Shown: positions 57,983 to 64,000 of the stretch, piece after piece
Position numbering within the stretch: the stretch's first letter is position 1
How the letters are laid out: the number at the start of each line of letters is the position of its first letter
NCBI GenBank assembly: GCA_000014925.1
Contig: CP000474.1
Span: 4,526,001 to 4,590,000 of the forward strand
DNA length: 64,000 bases
Source of the DNA: Paenarthrobacter aurescens TC1
GTDB lineage: Bacteria > Actinomycetota > Actinomycetes > Actinomycetales > Micrococcaceae
Direction: 5' to 3'
The notes under the pieces: model-generated
What the model saw: the letters and a program-made list of their open reading frames with translations, nothing else
Told to the model about the DNA's origin: nothing
The model's database searches: none
Translations under genes and position numbers: made by a program

Positions 57983-58939
57983 GTGAGCATTGCAGAAAAC
58001 AGCGCATCGCAGGTGCGTGACGTCATCATCGTTGGTTCAGGCCCTGCCGGCTATACAGCCGCCGTTTACACCGCCCGCGCCAACATGAAGCCTCTGCTCA
58101 TTGCCGGTTCCGTCACTGCTGGTGGCGAACTGATGAACACCACTGACGTGGAAAACTACCCGGGATTCCCGGAAGGCATCATGGGCCCGGACCTCATGGA
58201 GAACTTCGAGAAGCAGGCGGCCCGCTTCGGCACCGAGATCCAGTTTGAGGACGTTACCGAGCTGGACCTCGACGGCGACATCAAGACCGTGACCATCGGA
58301 ACGGGGGAGACCTTCCAGGCGAAGGCCATCATCCTGTCCACAGGTTCGGCCTACCGCGAGCTCGGCTTGGCCAACGAGAAGCGCCTCTCAGGCCACGGCG
58401 TTAGCTGGTGTGCAACCTGCGACGGTTTCTTCTTCAAGGATCAGGACATTGCCGTCATCGGTGGTGGCGACTCCGCCATGGAGGAAGCACTGTTCCTCAC
58501 CAAGTTTGCGAAGTCCGTCACGGTAGTCCACCGTCGCGATACCCTCAAGGCTTCCAAGATCATGGGTGACCGTGCCCAGGCCCACGAGAAGATCAAGTTC
58601 GTCTGGAACACGGCCGTTGAAGATGTTCTCGGTGGGGACAAGGTGACTGGTCTCAAGCTGAAGAACCTCGTGGACGGAACCGAGTCAGAACTCGCTGTCA
58701 CCGGCGTGTTCGTGGCCATCGGCAACGACCCCCGCACGGACCTCATCAAGGGCAAGGTTGATCTGACCCCTGAAGGAACCATTGCCGTGGAAGGCCGTAG
58801 CTCCCGGACCAACATCAAGGGTGTCTTCGCCGCGGGCGACGTCATTGATCCCACGTACCGCCAAGCCATTACGGCCTCGGGTTCCGGTTGTGTGGCTGCC
58901 CTTGACGTTGAGCACTACCTCGCAGACCTGCACTCCTAA
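57983..58939 (+). CDS. trxB: Thioredoxin reductase
   Basis: A 318-aa NADPH-dependent flavoenzyme that keeps thioredoxin reduced. FAD loop VIIVGSGPAGYTAAVYTARA, the redox pair in SWCATCDGFFF (CATC), NADPH loop VIGGGDSAMEEALFL, and the C-terminal FAD contact GVFAAGDVIDPTYRQAITAS. GTG start behind AAGGAAGAGG. Forms an operon with trxA, 34 bases apart. Confidence 0.96.
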   Translation: MSIAENSASQVRDVIIVGSGPAGYTAAVYTARANMKPLLIAGSVTAGGELMNTTDVENYPGFPEGIMGPDLMENFEKQAARFGTEIQFEDVTELDLDGDIKTVTIGTGETFQAKAIILSTGSAYRELGLANEKRLSGHGVSWCATCDGFFFKDQDIAVIGGGDSAMEEALFLTKFAKSVTVVHRRDTLKASKIMGDRAQAHEKIKFVWNTAVEDVLGGDKVTGLKLKNLVDGTESELAVTGVFVAIGNDPRTDLIKGKVDLTPEGTIAVEGRSSRTNIKGVFAAGDVIDPTYRQAITASGSGCVAALDVEHYLADLHS

Positions 58940-58973
58940 GCTGCATCCAAGCAACCATACGAAGGGAAAAGTT

Positions 58974-59300
58974 ATGAGCAACGCAAAAGACGTAACTGAC
59001 GCAAGCTTCAGTACGGATGTCCTGGCTTCCGAGAAGCCGGTCATCGTGGACTTCTGGGCAGAGTGGTGCGGCCCCTGCCGCAAGCTCGGCCCCATCCTCG
59101 ACGAGATCTCCGTCGAGTACAGCGAAAAGGTTGACGTTGTGAAGCTCAACGTCGACGACAACCCCGCCATCGCCGCCGAGTACGGCATCACGTCCATCCC
59201 GGCCGTGTACCTGTTCAGCGGGGGAGAAGTGAAGAGCACCGTCATCGGCGCCAAGCCGAAGCAGTTCTTCGAGAAGGAATTCGCGGACGTCCTGTCCTAA
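58974..59300 (+). CDS. trxA: Thioredoxin
   Basis: A 108-aa disulfide reductase. Active site IVDFWAEWCGPCRKLGPIL with the WCGPC pair, cis-Pro in ITSIPAVYLFSGGE. ATG follows GAAGGGAAA. It passes electrons from TrxB to target disulfides. Confidence 0.97.
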   Translation: MSNAKDVTDASFSTDVLASEKPVIVDFWAEWCGPCRKLGPILDEISVEYSEKVDVVKLNVDDNPAIAAEYGITSIPAVYLFSGGEVKSTVIGAKPKQFFEKEFADVLS

Positions 59301-59323
59301 GTTTTCCAGACCAAGTTACATCG

Positions 59324-59373
59324 AAAAGCCGGCGGCTGCTGCTCCTCAGGGAGCGGGAGTCGCCGGTTTTTTG
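59324..59373 (+). terminator. Rho-independent terminator of trxBA
   Basis: AAAAGCCGGCG and TCGCCGGTTTTTTG enclose a second hairpin (GCTCC/GGAGC), ending in a T-run; 23 bases past the trxA stop. Confidence 0.9.
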
Positions 59374-60060
59374 TTTCGTTCAATGATTTCAAACAGATTC
59401 GGTCTCATTAGTTCCGTACTCTTCCTGAGCGTCCCCCGGCTTCCTCCTGAGCTTACAGTGCCGTTCTCCCTACCTGGGGTAGGGAGAAATCATCGTTCCT
59501 TCAGGCGCTTCCCCGTTCTGCCAGACCGGGGCACCCCTGAGGGCATTTCTTCGTTGCTCGTCAAGCTGTCCTTCAAGCTCTCTTCCCGCTTGTTGTCCTG
59601 GCCACTGGCTAAAGTGGCGCTAGCTCGCCGGTCCGGTTCCCTGTCGGACTGACTTCTTGCCCGTCCGGTGTCCCTTCCAGTTCCTCGCCCGTCCGGTTCC
59701 TTTGGGGGGAGGGCCGTGAGCCCTCCGAAACCGAGGGCCGCGTTGCTGCATCTCCGCTTTCACATCGGGATGCACGCTGGCGATGTAAGTTGTATGGCTG
59801 CCCGCCGCAAGCTACGGGCCTCACGCTGCAAACAGAAGCCGCAGTCTGCTGAGGTAACCGCAGTTAGAGTGAATATCTTGCTGCCCCTGCGTCCTTCCAC
59901 GTCTCGCCGCCTAGCTAACCATCCCACTCCCTATTAACGTTGGGGAGGACCTTGGCCGTGCTGATGTAGGTAGTTCCTTGCCCGGTCGGAGGCCTTGTCC
60001 AAAAAAGAACCTCTTCCTGCTTTCAATTGCTTGTGTTTGGCTTCGAAGGTGGTGGGTGCC

Positions 60061-60076
60061 GGGTTCACGTGAAACA
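60061..60076. other. parS-like site 1
   Basis: The site has the core TTCACGTGAAACA and matches 14 of 16 bases of the ParB-binding consensus TGTTTCACGTGAAACA. Confidence 0.75.
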
Positions 60077-60244
60077 CTGCTCTCTAGTCCTAGCATTCAC
60101 TTTCCCAGTCACTTAGGTGGCTGGACCAGCGTTTAACATCTGAAGCGCGCGGAAAATCACCAAATACCGACTGCGGATTCAGTACCTGGGGCAGTTGACC
60201 CTCAGCTGACTATTTGACGGTTCTTCGGAATCATCACTAGTCAG

Positions 60245-60320
60245 TGCTTCCAATGCTTCCAATGCTTCCAATGCTTCCAATGCTTCCAATGCTTCCAATG
60301 CTTCCAATGCTTCCAATGCT
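60245..60320. repeat. 9-bp tandem repeat (minisatellite), eight copies
   Basis: TGCTTCCAA is repeated eight times without change, then TGCT. The unit is three codons long, but no gene spans it. Confidence 0.97.
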
Positions 60321-61014
60321 GAAAAGGCTACATATTCGGGCCGGAAACAGCCCGCTCTTCAGCGTAAGGGGGGCGTTAGGAAACGTGCGCCGGAACAGGT
60401 ACTGGTTGCCAGGATGCGTAGTAGGTCTCGATAGAAATCTGACTAGAACCAATTCTTATGCTGGAACCATCACTCGGTACTCGCATCAGATATTGTTACC
60501 GTTCTAGAACTGCGCGTTTCGATGGAGGTTACCCACCAGGTTCCGATCGTTCCGGCCGGTACACTCTCCACCTCATTGAGACCCATTTTCCTCTTGCTAT
60601 GGTCTTTTGGGGTCCTGGAAGGCCTTCTAGGACCCGGATCCATGCAGCAGCCGAGCGCTCTCGTTCTCCGCAGAACGCCCTAATCTTCCTGTGCAGGGCA
60701 ATAGCAGCGTGCCCATGCTGAACTCGCTCAAGCACAAGTTCTTTCACCCTGAGAGGGTGTCTGCGCTCATGAGGACTCATCTACTTGTAGACGGTTTCAG
60801 TAACCTCCGTGTCGGTCGCCAGCCGGTGAAACCACTCCTGCCAGGGCGAAAGAAGCAGACAAGGTGAATACCGTCTCGCTAGTTACAATCAGAGTCGTTA
60901 TCCGCGCATCGTCGTCCAAAGCTTGGTGATTCCGCGCGGGATTCGCCCTAGTGCGCAGTTCTATCGGGCTAGCTCAGCCAACAGGTTCGCTTTGTCCGCC
61001 GGTTCCATGGCCTA

Positions 61015-61030
61015 CGTTTCACGTGAAACA
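61015..61030. other. parS site 2
   Basis: CGTTTCACGTGAAACA matches the ParB consensus in 15 of 16 bases. Confidence 0.88.
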
Positions 61031-61213
61031 CCATTCAGACCCTCTCAGCCCTGAGCTACGACGTTCACGCGATTTGGGTCCGCAATTGCAGTACCGACTC
61101 ACACATGAATAGTCCGAAACCAAGTGTCCGGGATCCGGGGCCGCCACCGCCACGTTCCGATTCCCACATGACTCACGCGATGCCCGAGCATCATCACCGG
61201 CCCGACTGGCACA

Positions 61214-61229
61214 TGTTTCACGTGAAACA
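61214..61229. other. parS site 3 (perfect)
   Basis: TGTTTCACGTGAAACA, exact 16-bp palindrome. Confidence 0.95.
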
Positions 61230-61702
61230 CGCTTCCATACCTCATCCTGAATCTTGCACGGGCCTAAACGCCCTCGGGCGGACTACGAAGAACTGAACCT
61301 GAAGAGTCGGCGTGGCCCTGATTGAAGGGCACCCAGTGGCTTCTCTGCTGTGCGAAGGACTACGCCGTAGTGATCGGCCGCATGCGCGTGAACCAAGATG
61401 CAGGCCCCGCCAGGAGATAGCTGTAGGGGTGCGCCCGTTACCACGTCAGGAACCCGCGCTGAAGACGCTCGGGCCCGCAGGTTCGTACGGATGCAGCCGC
61501 ATCGCTACCCGGAACACGGGCGAGCCGGCGCATGAACGCACGGGCGCTCAACCACGCGACCAAGCCTGTGGATCGACAAGAGACGAGTCAGAGCGCGGGC
61601 GACCTCCTTCCAATGTCTGCCTTTTCACGGGGCGAGTGGCAATCGTGCGCCCAATGGGTCCAAGACCAAGTCCCCAGGCTAGGGGGAGTAGCGGAATGAA
61701 CA

Positions 61703-61718
61703 TGTTTCACGTGAAACA
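61703..61718. other. parS site 4 (perfect)
   Basis: TGTTTCACGTGAAACA, exact 16-bp palindrome; flanking base context (CA before) is shared with site 3. Confidence 0.95.
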
Positions 61719-62422
61719 GGATGAGCTCATGAAAGGACCCACCAACCGAGGTTTAGGCCTCAAACCAGACCATCCCCTTCAGTGCAGCTCCTTCCCCCAT
61801 CCTTGGGGGCACTCCATGACTGCAGCGCGTAGGTCACCAGGCTCTTGGCGCACGACGTCCGGCCAGCCATAACGACATGCCCCGCACAAATGCCGGCATG
61901 GGAACGACGAGGCCGTCGTCGTGCGTGAGTGCCCTGCTTGCGAACTACGACGCCGTTGACGTAGGTAGGAGAAGCCGGCGGCACCATCCTGCAAGGAGCG
62001 CTTGGGGAGACGGTGGCTACAGTTCGCAGACCCATCCGGCGGTTCCTCCAATGCGCCCCCGCACTAGCCACGACTGCTTGTCTTGTCCTTGTCTCGCCAC
62101 CTGGGTACCAAGCGCAGGGGGAGAACGTCTGCGCCGACGTATGAGGTGAAGGGGATGTCAGCGGCGCTGACCTGATACATCCGATGAATATCCCTTGATA
62201 GTGGAAGCAACTGTGTACACCGGGAGTGTGATGCGCACGCGTCCGGCCAATGAAGACGATCATAGGGGCTTAGTGCGTCGCACTGAAGTCCAATCTTCTG
62301 TCCGACTATCCATACCCTCATCAAGCACCAACAATCGCGCTTGCGAATTTTCCCACATGGTGCCGATCTAAACTGCCGTGATCAGGGGCGACTAGAGAGC
62401 AAAGAGTCGGCCTACGCCGACA

Positions 62423-62467
62423 CCATCCACAGACTTGTGCACAGTGTTATCCACAGGCTTATCCACT
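62423..62467 (+). other. DnaA-box cluster 1
   Basis: Four boxes in one direction: CCATCCACA (62423), TTGTGCACA (62435), TTATCCACA (62447, perfect) and TTATCCACT (62459). Their starts are exactly 12 bases apart, a regular spacing that suggests cooperative DnaA binding. Confidence 0.8.
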
Positions 62468-62767
62468 GCTCATGAGATTGCCCACATACCCTCCCTTGGC
62501 GGCGACGGAAGCCCATGCAGACTTTCACTTCACTGAAGTCAGGATGCTTCTCGATCCTTGTTGTGGAACAAGGGCTTGGCCACATTGAATTGCCGCCAAA
62601 TCAATGAAAATTGGGCAATATGCGCATACTCACAGTAGGCAGTGGGGGGGTGGATATCCTGGCTTCAGCCAATGTCGGGCTCTGGTTCCATTGGAGGCAC
62701 GTTAACCCGACTTGGGACGTCGGCAGAACTGATTCCATGGGATCGGGCAGGCTTCGGATCAACAGAC

Positions 62768-62823
62768 TTATCCCCAGTGTTTTCCACAGGGATATCCACC
62801 GCCTTATCCACGGTTTAACCACT
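62768..62823 (+). other. DnaA-box cluster 2
   Basis: Five boxes in the same direction: TTATCCCCA (62768), TTTTCCACA (62780), ATATCCACC (62792), TTATCCACG (62804) and TTAACCACT (62815). Starts are 12, 12, 12 and 11 bases apart, the same step as in cluster 1. None is perfect; each differs by one or two bases. Confidence 0.78.
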
Positions 62824-62880
62824 GCTTAAATGGGCGCCTGCGAAGCTCCGTCAAACGGGAGGCAGCGTGCCCCGTTGCTC

Positions 62881-62896
62881 TGTTTCACGTGAAACA
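62881..62896. other. parS site 5 (perfect)
   Basis: TGTTTCACGTGAAACA, exact 16-bp palindrome, 58 bases after DnaA-box cluster 2. Confidence 0.95.
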
Positions 62897-64000
62897 CTGG
62901 ACAGCGGCCACGCCGAAACCACATGCCACCGGCGAACTTGAGCGAGACACACGTCAGGAAAACGGCTCCTCACAGAGTGACCACGGGAGTTCTAGGTCAT
63001 GGAGAGTTTGGTAGCCACAATGTGGGACCTAGCAACATCCGACCAATTGACAACGGCACAACTGCTCTGGGCACGGCCGTGGTCCCCAGCCCACCTATGG
63101 TCGACCGCTGCATAGCACTTCCGGACCAGGCGACCACACGCTGAGAGATGGACTGCACCACCTCATCTCTGCAGAGGACCAGCCGTCGGCGTGAGCGTAC
63201 CGGTTGTAGTTCGTCGCAGTCGCTCAACTAGCGTGGCAACTTGAGGACGCCCAGGGTGTCATCACTGTGGCCCAGCGCCCTCGAGAAGGGACATTCATGA
63301 CTTCATGAAATGCCGTCATGGCCCGCGTTAGCCCGATGTGGAAGGCACCGCAGCGCGGGGCTCAGGAGCAACGGAGAATCATGTTCGAGATACATGCAAC
63401 ATTCGTTAGCCCTCGATGATGCATCGACTACCTCTGTCCCAACCCCCAGCAACTCACAGAGGCCATAGATGGACCGCATTAGCGAAGTCCTGATGCCGCC
63501 GCGCTGTACAGGACACGATTAGACACAACGCTCGATGGCCACCGTGACCATGGAATGACAAGATGTGGTCTCAGTTGCAGCACAATTCAAACCACCGGTT
63601 CGTCGTGAGTCCTCACAGGCACCGGCACGACGAGAACTTCGGATGCATTCGCTGACGCATCCGACGATATTGTCTTACCTCGGCGAGGACTAGAAGGGTT
63701 TAGCAGGACACCTTGGCAGCCTGGCCCCAGGGGGAGCGAAGGCTAGAAGCCTGCGTAGTAGCTCAGGGAGCCGTACATTCCGGCCATCCATGCGTATCTA
63801 TTCGAGACGCCCAAACAGCTGCCGCCCAGCAAGCAGTGGTCAGTGACAGGGGCCCATGCCGACTATCCGAGGCATCGCCCATCGGCTCAAGGGCAATCCA
63901 GCTGGTGATCGGTCAATCGCGGGATTTCCGGGCGGTTCGTGCCCTGGAACATCTGTGGCAGCCTAAGCACTCCGGCATTGAACCAAGCCTCCCTGGTAAA

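Follow-up and report, generated by a model that had tools for sequence, protein, structure and literature searches.

How the start of replication is coupled to chromosome segregation is an open question in bacteria, with few worked cases, among them Caulobacter, chromosome II of Vibrio and the secondary replicons of Deinococcus. A long stretch of DNA without genes, lying between trxA and parB close to the origin of Paenarthrobacter aurescens TC1, raises the same question for the Arthrobacter lineage. It occupies the end of a 64,000-nucleotide stretch (the window, C1:4526001-4590000, C1 being contig CP000474.1). A prediction made from the letters of this window had described a gene-free locus of 4.6 kb that combined parS sites, DnaA boxes and a minisatellite, and had suggested a dedicated non-coding centromere with a DnaA-binding function. 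After comparing the interval across genomes, we lean modestly towards the view that the trxA-parB gap is a chromosomal centromere with a built-in DnaA complex that would couple segregation, or the control of DnaA, to replication. The arrangement is compact and conserved, it has a testable geometry and it occurs in a culturable soil genus. Among the titles listed in a search of the open literature, none describes this Arthrobacter locus, and the available part of one Arthrobacter genome paper mentions neither oriC, parB, parS nor dnaA.

RESULTS

Tandem DnaA boxes are concentrated in a parS-rich interval

The center of the interval holds two co-oriented groups of DnaA boxes, arrays A and B, with their units at 12-bp spacing (Table 1). 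Single DnaA boxes are not in significant excess over the window (7 versus 5.3 expected), and it is the tandem spacing that sets the locus apart: only eight 12-bp-spaced pairs with up to three mismatches occur in this 5.2-Mb genome, five of them in the gap and one each at dnaA-dnaN, at rpmH-dnaA and at C1:17731. The coordinates compared for the tandem boxes were 62435-62824 of the window versus C1:1464 and C1:4597592.

The genus sample consisted of 61 genomes, this strain and 60 drawn from a larger group, all of which have trxA and parB; in one of them (G014) the two genes lie on separate contigs, leaving 60 intact intervals. All 60 have two box groups, one of them at the position of array A, so that DnaA sites, as judged by motif, lie inside the parS locus throughout. 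The consensus of array B over the 57 intervals free of inserted cargo is TTATCCACAaAGTTATCCACAGcGATATCCACCG. Allowing up to one mismatch, the 60 intervals together contain 325 boxes on the plus strand and 12 on the minus strand (22.8 and 16.6 in shuffles). Of the perfect boxes, 133 are on the plus and none on the minus strand, and 141 boxes have a partner 11 to 13 bp further on (0 in shuffles). Near-perfect 12-bp pairs (at most one mismatch) were found 148 times in the 61 whole genomes, a total confirmed as complete: 104 in the gap (56/60 genomes), 2 in G014 at 2.6 to 3.0 kb beyond trxA, 42 in the dnaA-dnaN region, up to 13 kb from the gap or close to a contig start (the dnaA-dnaN position was read directly in 9 of the 11 genomes parsed), and none elsewhere. 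Across the sampled genus, the centromere thus outnumbers the oriC region by 106 to 42.

The window also holds three perfect 16-mer parS sites, one with a single mismatch and one with two, against a shuffle mean of 0.17. Counted as 14-bp cores, seven of the eight perfect sites in the genome are in the gap, as are two of the three cores with one mismatch (the third is at C1:4011991). The only perfect core outside the gap, at C1:4593773-4593786 (L005 about 10774), falls within the parA reading frame, towards its 5' end. Consensus parS sites are therefore clustered origin-proximally beside parAB, as in a ParABS centromere, and the co-occurrence of ParB and DnaA sites claimed in the original prediction is borne out by these seven cores and the two tandem box groups. 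The 60 intact intervals have 5 to 11 perfect parS sites each (median, 8). One of them (L056, genome G047) carries parS inside a 121-bp unit repeated 3.1 times at 470-847 of the oriented interval, a tandem amplification of the centromere site.

One parS site keeps a fixed distance to array B

Distances were measured in the 57 cargo-free genomes after anchoring the arrays by their own profiles. In 48 of them, the two arrays have a parS site between them, 111 to 144 bp before the central box of B, with 31 of the distances at 120 to 123 bp and 11 at 131 to 134 bp. The standard deviation (SD) is 6.7 bp, as against 89.5 bp expected for a site placed uniformly between the arrays, and the SDs for the next parS leftward and rightward are 304 and 441 bp. 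The steps of about 11 bp in these distances point to helical phasing. A second collection was assembled by running an exact, strict array B pattern, which misses variants such as the array of this strain, against 84,980 species genomes. It returned 32 loci, every one titled Arthrobacter or Pseudarthrobacter; 6 of them match a contig of the first set in length, and the two collections therefore overlap in part. All 32 hold a perfect parS, and 31 have one 98 to 133 bp before array B.

Phased A-tracts lie between the arrays

An AT-rich unwinding element between the arrays was considered and rejected, the 40-bp AT maximum exceeding that of shuffles in just 28/57 genomes, though its position clusters, starting 160 to 240 bp before B in 46/57. 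This clustering led us to the analysis of phased A-tracts, which curve DNA. In the slot between A and B, the A-tract autocorrelation peaks at 10, 20 to 21 and 31 bp (counts of 103, 100 and 60, with troughs of 8 to 22), while that of control spacer is flat except for a bump at lag 9, which we ascribe to parS. The interval-wide maximum of 10.5-bp phasing falls in the slot in 26/57 genomes (1.4 expected) or 20/43 clusters (1.1 expected). With other periods (6.5 to 8.5 and 11.5 to 15.5 bp), the maximum falls there in 3 to 8 of the 43 clusters, still over chance, and we put this down to the A/T-richness of the patch. The patch of this strain has the strongest 10.5-bp phasing of its entire interval, and the three genomes with cargo also show phased A-tracts; among six loci from sister genera, only that of G106 has its phasing maximum in the slot. 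Curved DNA between the arrays is the prediction that follows from these patterns.

The interval is non-coding

The assembly comprises 5,226,648 bases in three contigs (4,597,686, 328,237 and 300,725). The gap measures 6,247 bp (C1:4585301-4591547, or window position 59301 to window-equivalent 65547), so the earlier figure of 4.6 kb was too small and the locus runs beyond the window. Both flanking genes are convergent into the gap, which is followed by parB, parA, rsmG, jag, yidC, rnpA and, at C1:1, dnaA; about 10 kb separates it from dnaA-dnaN. The names rsmG, jag, yidC and rnpA come from reading translations of open reading frames (ORFs), and Pfam domains are consistent with trxA, trxB, parB, parA and dnaA.

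Table 1. Features of the trxA-parB interval and its borders (window coordinates)
Feature	Position	Strand	Remarks
trxA, left border	58974..59300	+	Pfam Thioredoxin, 1e-28; matched in 61/61 genus genomes
Gene-free interval, window part	59301..64000	.	Coding-model scan, Pfam (ten ORFs), Rfam; extends to 65547
Degenerate parS	60061..60076	.	2 mismatches in 16, 1 in 14-bp core
Minisatellite, TGCTTCCAA x 8.4	60245-60320	+	This strain only
parS	61015..61030	.	Perfect 14-bp core, 1 mismatch in 16
parS, perfect	61214..61229	.	
parS, perfect	61703..61718	.	
DnaA array A	62423..62467	+	Box-like units at 62423, 62435, 62447 (perfect TTATCCACA) and 62459; 12-bp spacing
Phased A-tract patch	62583..62658	+	Between A and B; predicted curved DNA
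DnaA array B	62756..62824	+	Box-like units at 62756, 62768, 62780, 62792, 62804 and 62816; 12-bp spacing
Core parS	62881..62896	.	Motif match; right of array B in this strain
parB, right border	window-equivalent 65548-66795	-	Gap runs on for 1,547 bp past the window end

Coding potential was scored in 150-bp windows with a 3-periodic, fourth-order model trained on long ORFs, the threshold being the 99% level of shuffles. None of the 80 gap windows passed, versus 59% of 866 other windows, and the resulting non-coding run of 7.2 kb, about 0.8 kb of which is a poorly scoring parB, compares with 1.1 kb for the next longest there. With a looser threshold, applied to 400 kb around dnaA, threshold crossings break the gap up into two runs of 2.9 and 2.2 kb, and the sole comparable protein-noncoding runs, between +150 and +163 kb, correspond to two rRNA operons. 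These operons are arranged in tandem about 150 kb from dnaA (C1 about 150.5-163.3 kb; L148 and L149).

Ten of the longer ORFs in the gap had no Pfam match above the cut-off (a set without the ORFs of 87 and 93 aa), and Rfam returned four chance-level matches over positions 58900-64000, the window part, none of them at the gathering score. Promoter and terminator counts are close to shuffle means, except for a conspicuous 15-pair terminator-like stem after parB. Hidden genes were rejected on the negative results of the coding model, of Pfam on the ten ORFs and of the relatives' gaps, and RNA genes in the window part were discarded as candidates, the Rfam matches being at chance level. The claim that the locus is free of genes is therefore upheld by the codon-model scoring, Pfam and Rfam. 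Homologous proteins, which would have spoken against that claim, did not appear among the ten ORFs or in relatives' gaps, no wider six-frame search having been made.

The gap is conserved in length and layout but not in sequence

The gap is present in all 60 intact intervals, which agrees with the predicted placement between trxA and parB and speaks against the suspicion that misassembly had created it. Its length is 3,924 to 6,960 bp in 57 genomes and 9.4, 13.2 and 16.4 kb in the other three (G022, G032 and G047), which carry cargo. Two ORFs were examined by Pfam in each: G022 has transposase domains, G047 encodes an integrase and a transposase-like protein, and one ORF of G032 encodes a GntR-aminotransferase protein while its second has no Pfam match. 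The cargo leaves the DnaA-parS core in place in all three loci (L031, L041 and L056, respectively), and the gap may act as a landing site where insertions are tolerated. Of 1,932 300-bp windows from the 57 gaps without cargo, 6 scored as coding at a 0.5% shuffle threshold, all 57 were called gene-free, and three ORFs of 316 to 329 aa in relatives' gaps had no Pfam match.

When the gap of this strain was compared with the 59 others by blastn, only short islands aligned, namely the arrays, parS and the 3' edge of trxA. The eight closest pairs within the set have a spacer identity of 0.48 to 0.80; between this strain and six relatives, it is 0.43 to 0.45, against 0.41 to 0.44 for shuffled partners, while fourfold sites of trxA show 0.65 to 0.92 identity over ten pairs. 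Judged by these comparisons, substitutions in the spacer are near saturation. Despite this, the gap has been lost in none of the 60 genomes, from which we infer selection for gene-free length.

The minisatellite shares nothing of this conservation. Some tandem array occurs in 30/60 intervals, but the TGCTTCCAA unit is in none of the other 59, and we rejected the minisatellite as a functional part since its unit is confined to this strain. It is absent from the conserved design, contrary to the original prediction, and is probably not part of the function.

In the loci sampled, the DnaA core is confined to the Arthrobacter lineage and its neighbors

From a family sample of 90 genomes, the loci of 20 of the 85 members outside the genus were fetched. 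Two box groups are present in the sister genera g7 (3/3) and g19 (3/3); the other 14 loci lack the paired groups, having parS, no more than stray boxes and, in some, a gene following trxA. At the order level, 59 genomes were searched for trxA, 48 matched and 20 loci from other families were fetched. Many loci outside the genus have a long reading frame after trxA. The two that were checked (L082:637-1824 and L114:416-1552), one from the same family and one from another, encode an N-acetylmuramoyl-L-alanine amidase with peptidoglycan-binding domains; there is no amidase at this position in the Arthrobacter lineage. Given the family- and order-level distribution, it looks as if the parS-rich gap is the older feature and the DnaA core was gained in the Arthrobacter lineage.

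DISCUSSION

The sites, their geometry, the phased A-tracts, the non-coding score and the conservation are observed features of this locus; protein binding, looping and coupling are what we would infer from them. What was predicted as a dedicated non-coding centromere with DnaA-binding accordingly stands in its sequence-level part, through the placement in 60/60 intervals, the 57 gene-free gaps and the sites, while its binding part is a reading of motifs. If the locus is a centromere with a DnaA complex, ParB would load on 7 to 9 parS sites spread over 6 kb of gene-free DNA, and the lack of genes would probably keep transcription from disturbing ParB spreading and condensin loading. At the composite center, made up of array A, the predicted curved DNA, parS and array B (with parS just past B in this strain), DnaA could oligomerise on two co-oriented arrays joined by the bend, close to ParB on the neighboring parS. 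The fixed spacing between parS and the arrays makes a meeting of DnaA and ParB complexes on the core DNA the simplest account. Since the locus is about 10 kb from dnaA-dnaN, it is copied almost immediately after firing, and, in line with a proposal made for Caulobacter, DnaA bound there might gate or trigger the spreading of ParB and the initial movement driven by ParA. Titration of DnaA at the arrays, damping re-initiation, could be a second or alternative effect.

Several observations weigh against this reading. Eight genomes, including this strain, have parS 79 to 102 bp beyond the central box of B, at values close to 80, 90 and 101 bp, and G039 has no parS in the core at all; the distance steps may also come from the 12-bp register of the boxes rather than from helix phasing. 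The arrays themselves are uneven, as 4 of the 60 gaps (G008, G010, G041 and G045) lack a near-perfect pair and 10/57 genomes show a single box at one mismatch or fewer in at least one group, with more degenerate neighbors. The A-tract analysis was prompted post hoc by the same sequences; the slot is outside the top 3% of interval windows in 13/57 genomes and outside the top 10% in 7, and a gap without arrays (G115) likewise has a strong phased patch. Outside the genus, g7 has no parS between the arrays (0/3) and g19 has it near A, not B (3/3). None of the 20 order-level loci has box groups, though parB was found in all 20, and most of the Micrococcales sampled do without the DnaA element.

The strongest competing account is that of a datA-like element, a cluster of boxes that solely titrates or inactivates DnaA-ATP after initiation and is co-located with parS without interacting with it. 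An origin-proximal, gene-free site would then explain why such an element sits in the centromere. Two arrays around predicted bent DNA resemble datA, with box groups outside oriC flanking a bend that is weak in some genomes, the position fits titration after initiation, near-perfect pairs are more numerous than in the oriC region, and g7 has arrays without parS between them. The tight parS-to-B spacing, with its SD of 6.7 instead of 89.5 bp and its recurrence in 31 of the 32 loci of the second collection, is unexpected if parS and the arrays are unrelated, and we regard pure titration as unlikely, while still giving it real weight.

Could the element instead serve as an origin of replication, either by itself or as an outlying part of a multipartite oriC, with DnaA opening the DNA there or the arrays looping to dnaA-dnaN? 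Its two 12-bp-spaced arrays supply the clustered DnaA boxes of an origin, with more near-perfect pairs than oriC, and in secondary replicons of Deinococcus one cis element is reported to serve as both ori and parS-like site (PMC7671480). The AT-rich unwinding element is missing: the best 50-bp AT content of the core averages 0.585 (0.52 to 0.64), versus 0.66 to 0.74 at dnaA-dnaN, where boxes and an AT-rich patch are kept in 9 of the 11 genomes parsed from dnaA (the other two records begin before dnaA). GC skew does not switch at the arrays, but it shows no clear switch at dnaA-dnaN either, being negative there too, and cumulative skew was uninformative. In Kocuria, oriC with its unwinding element has been placed at dnaA-dnaN (PMC12500396). 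On the evidence, the core is not oriC, and we consider an origin function of either kind improbable.

It is more improbable still that this is an ordinary parS-rich region for ParB loading whose boxes bind something else or are decaying leftovers. Parallels can be found in the parS-rich gaps without arrays of other genera and families; leftovers, however, would decay like the spacer, and the box arrays survive in otherwise diverged spacer together with parS and the trxA edge, nearly all on one strand. An assembly error, or genes missed by annotation, has a negligible probability given a gap in 60/60 genomes with both genes on one contig and 6 coding windows among 1,932.

A bolder form of the centromere reading, which we put forward tentatively and would not bet on, is that DnaA arrays, bent A-tracts and parS form one geometric switch, in which DnaA occupancy would control the loading or escape of ParB clamps and so start segregation, the surrounding 4 to 7 kb being selected for length and gene-freeness and not for sequence. 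If true, such a centromere would be a bacterial counterpart of centromeric chromatin. In any case, the locus illustrates clearly how bacterial DNA can keep its length, its gene-freeness and the layout of its sites while its sequence changes, a kind of conservation that alignment-based annotation overlooks.

Clusters of DnaA boxes outside oriC have precedents in datA and DARS of Escherichia coli and in Streptomyces. At datA, a bend made by IHF lies between groups of DnaA boxes; none of these clusters is known to lie in a centromere or to include parS. In the locus described here, the predicted bend between box groups would come from phased A-tracts in the place of IHF. The closest parallel at a centromere is Caulobacter crescentus, whose parS is bound by DnaA, which supports segregation independently of replication (Mera et al. 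2014, via PMC6399470 and PMC6667618). In both, sites for the initiator lie within a centromere close to the origin, at 8 kb from ori in Caulobacter and about 10 kb from dnaA-dnaN here. Caulobacter belongs to another phylum, and the paired tandem arrays, the fixed parS spacing, the phased A-tracts and the gene-free setting of 4 to 7 kb are features of the Arthrobacter locus. Chromosome II of Vibrio cholerae likewise combines a centromere and initiator binding in one locus, rctA/parS2, although the initiator is RctB and the chromosome a secondary one (PMC6399470). At cisII and cisMP of Deinococcus radiodurans, DnaA and the cognate ParB are reported to bind the same cis element beside parAB (PMC7671480); these elements differ from ours in belonging to secondary replicons, in using iterons as parS-like sites, in their non-canonical boxes and AT-richness and in functioning as ori. 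Among the Actinobacteria, Corynebacterium glutamicum has a comparable ParB/SMC hub, with ten parS sites to one side of oriC, all but one of which are intergenic; they are dispersed over 35 kb and lie 73 kb from oriC, and the available portion of that report mentions no DnaA element (PMC7083940). ParA or ParB is moreover known to affect or touch DnaA in several species (PMC7022226). An initiator at the centromere is thus already known from Caulobacter, Vibrio and Deinococcus, with datA as a further precedent, and the Arthrobacter arrangement is a new variant.

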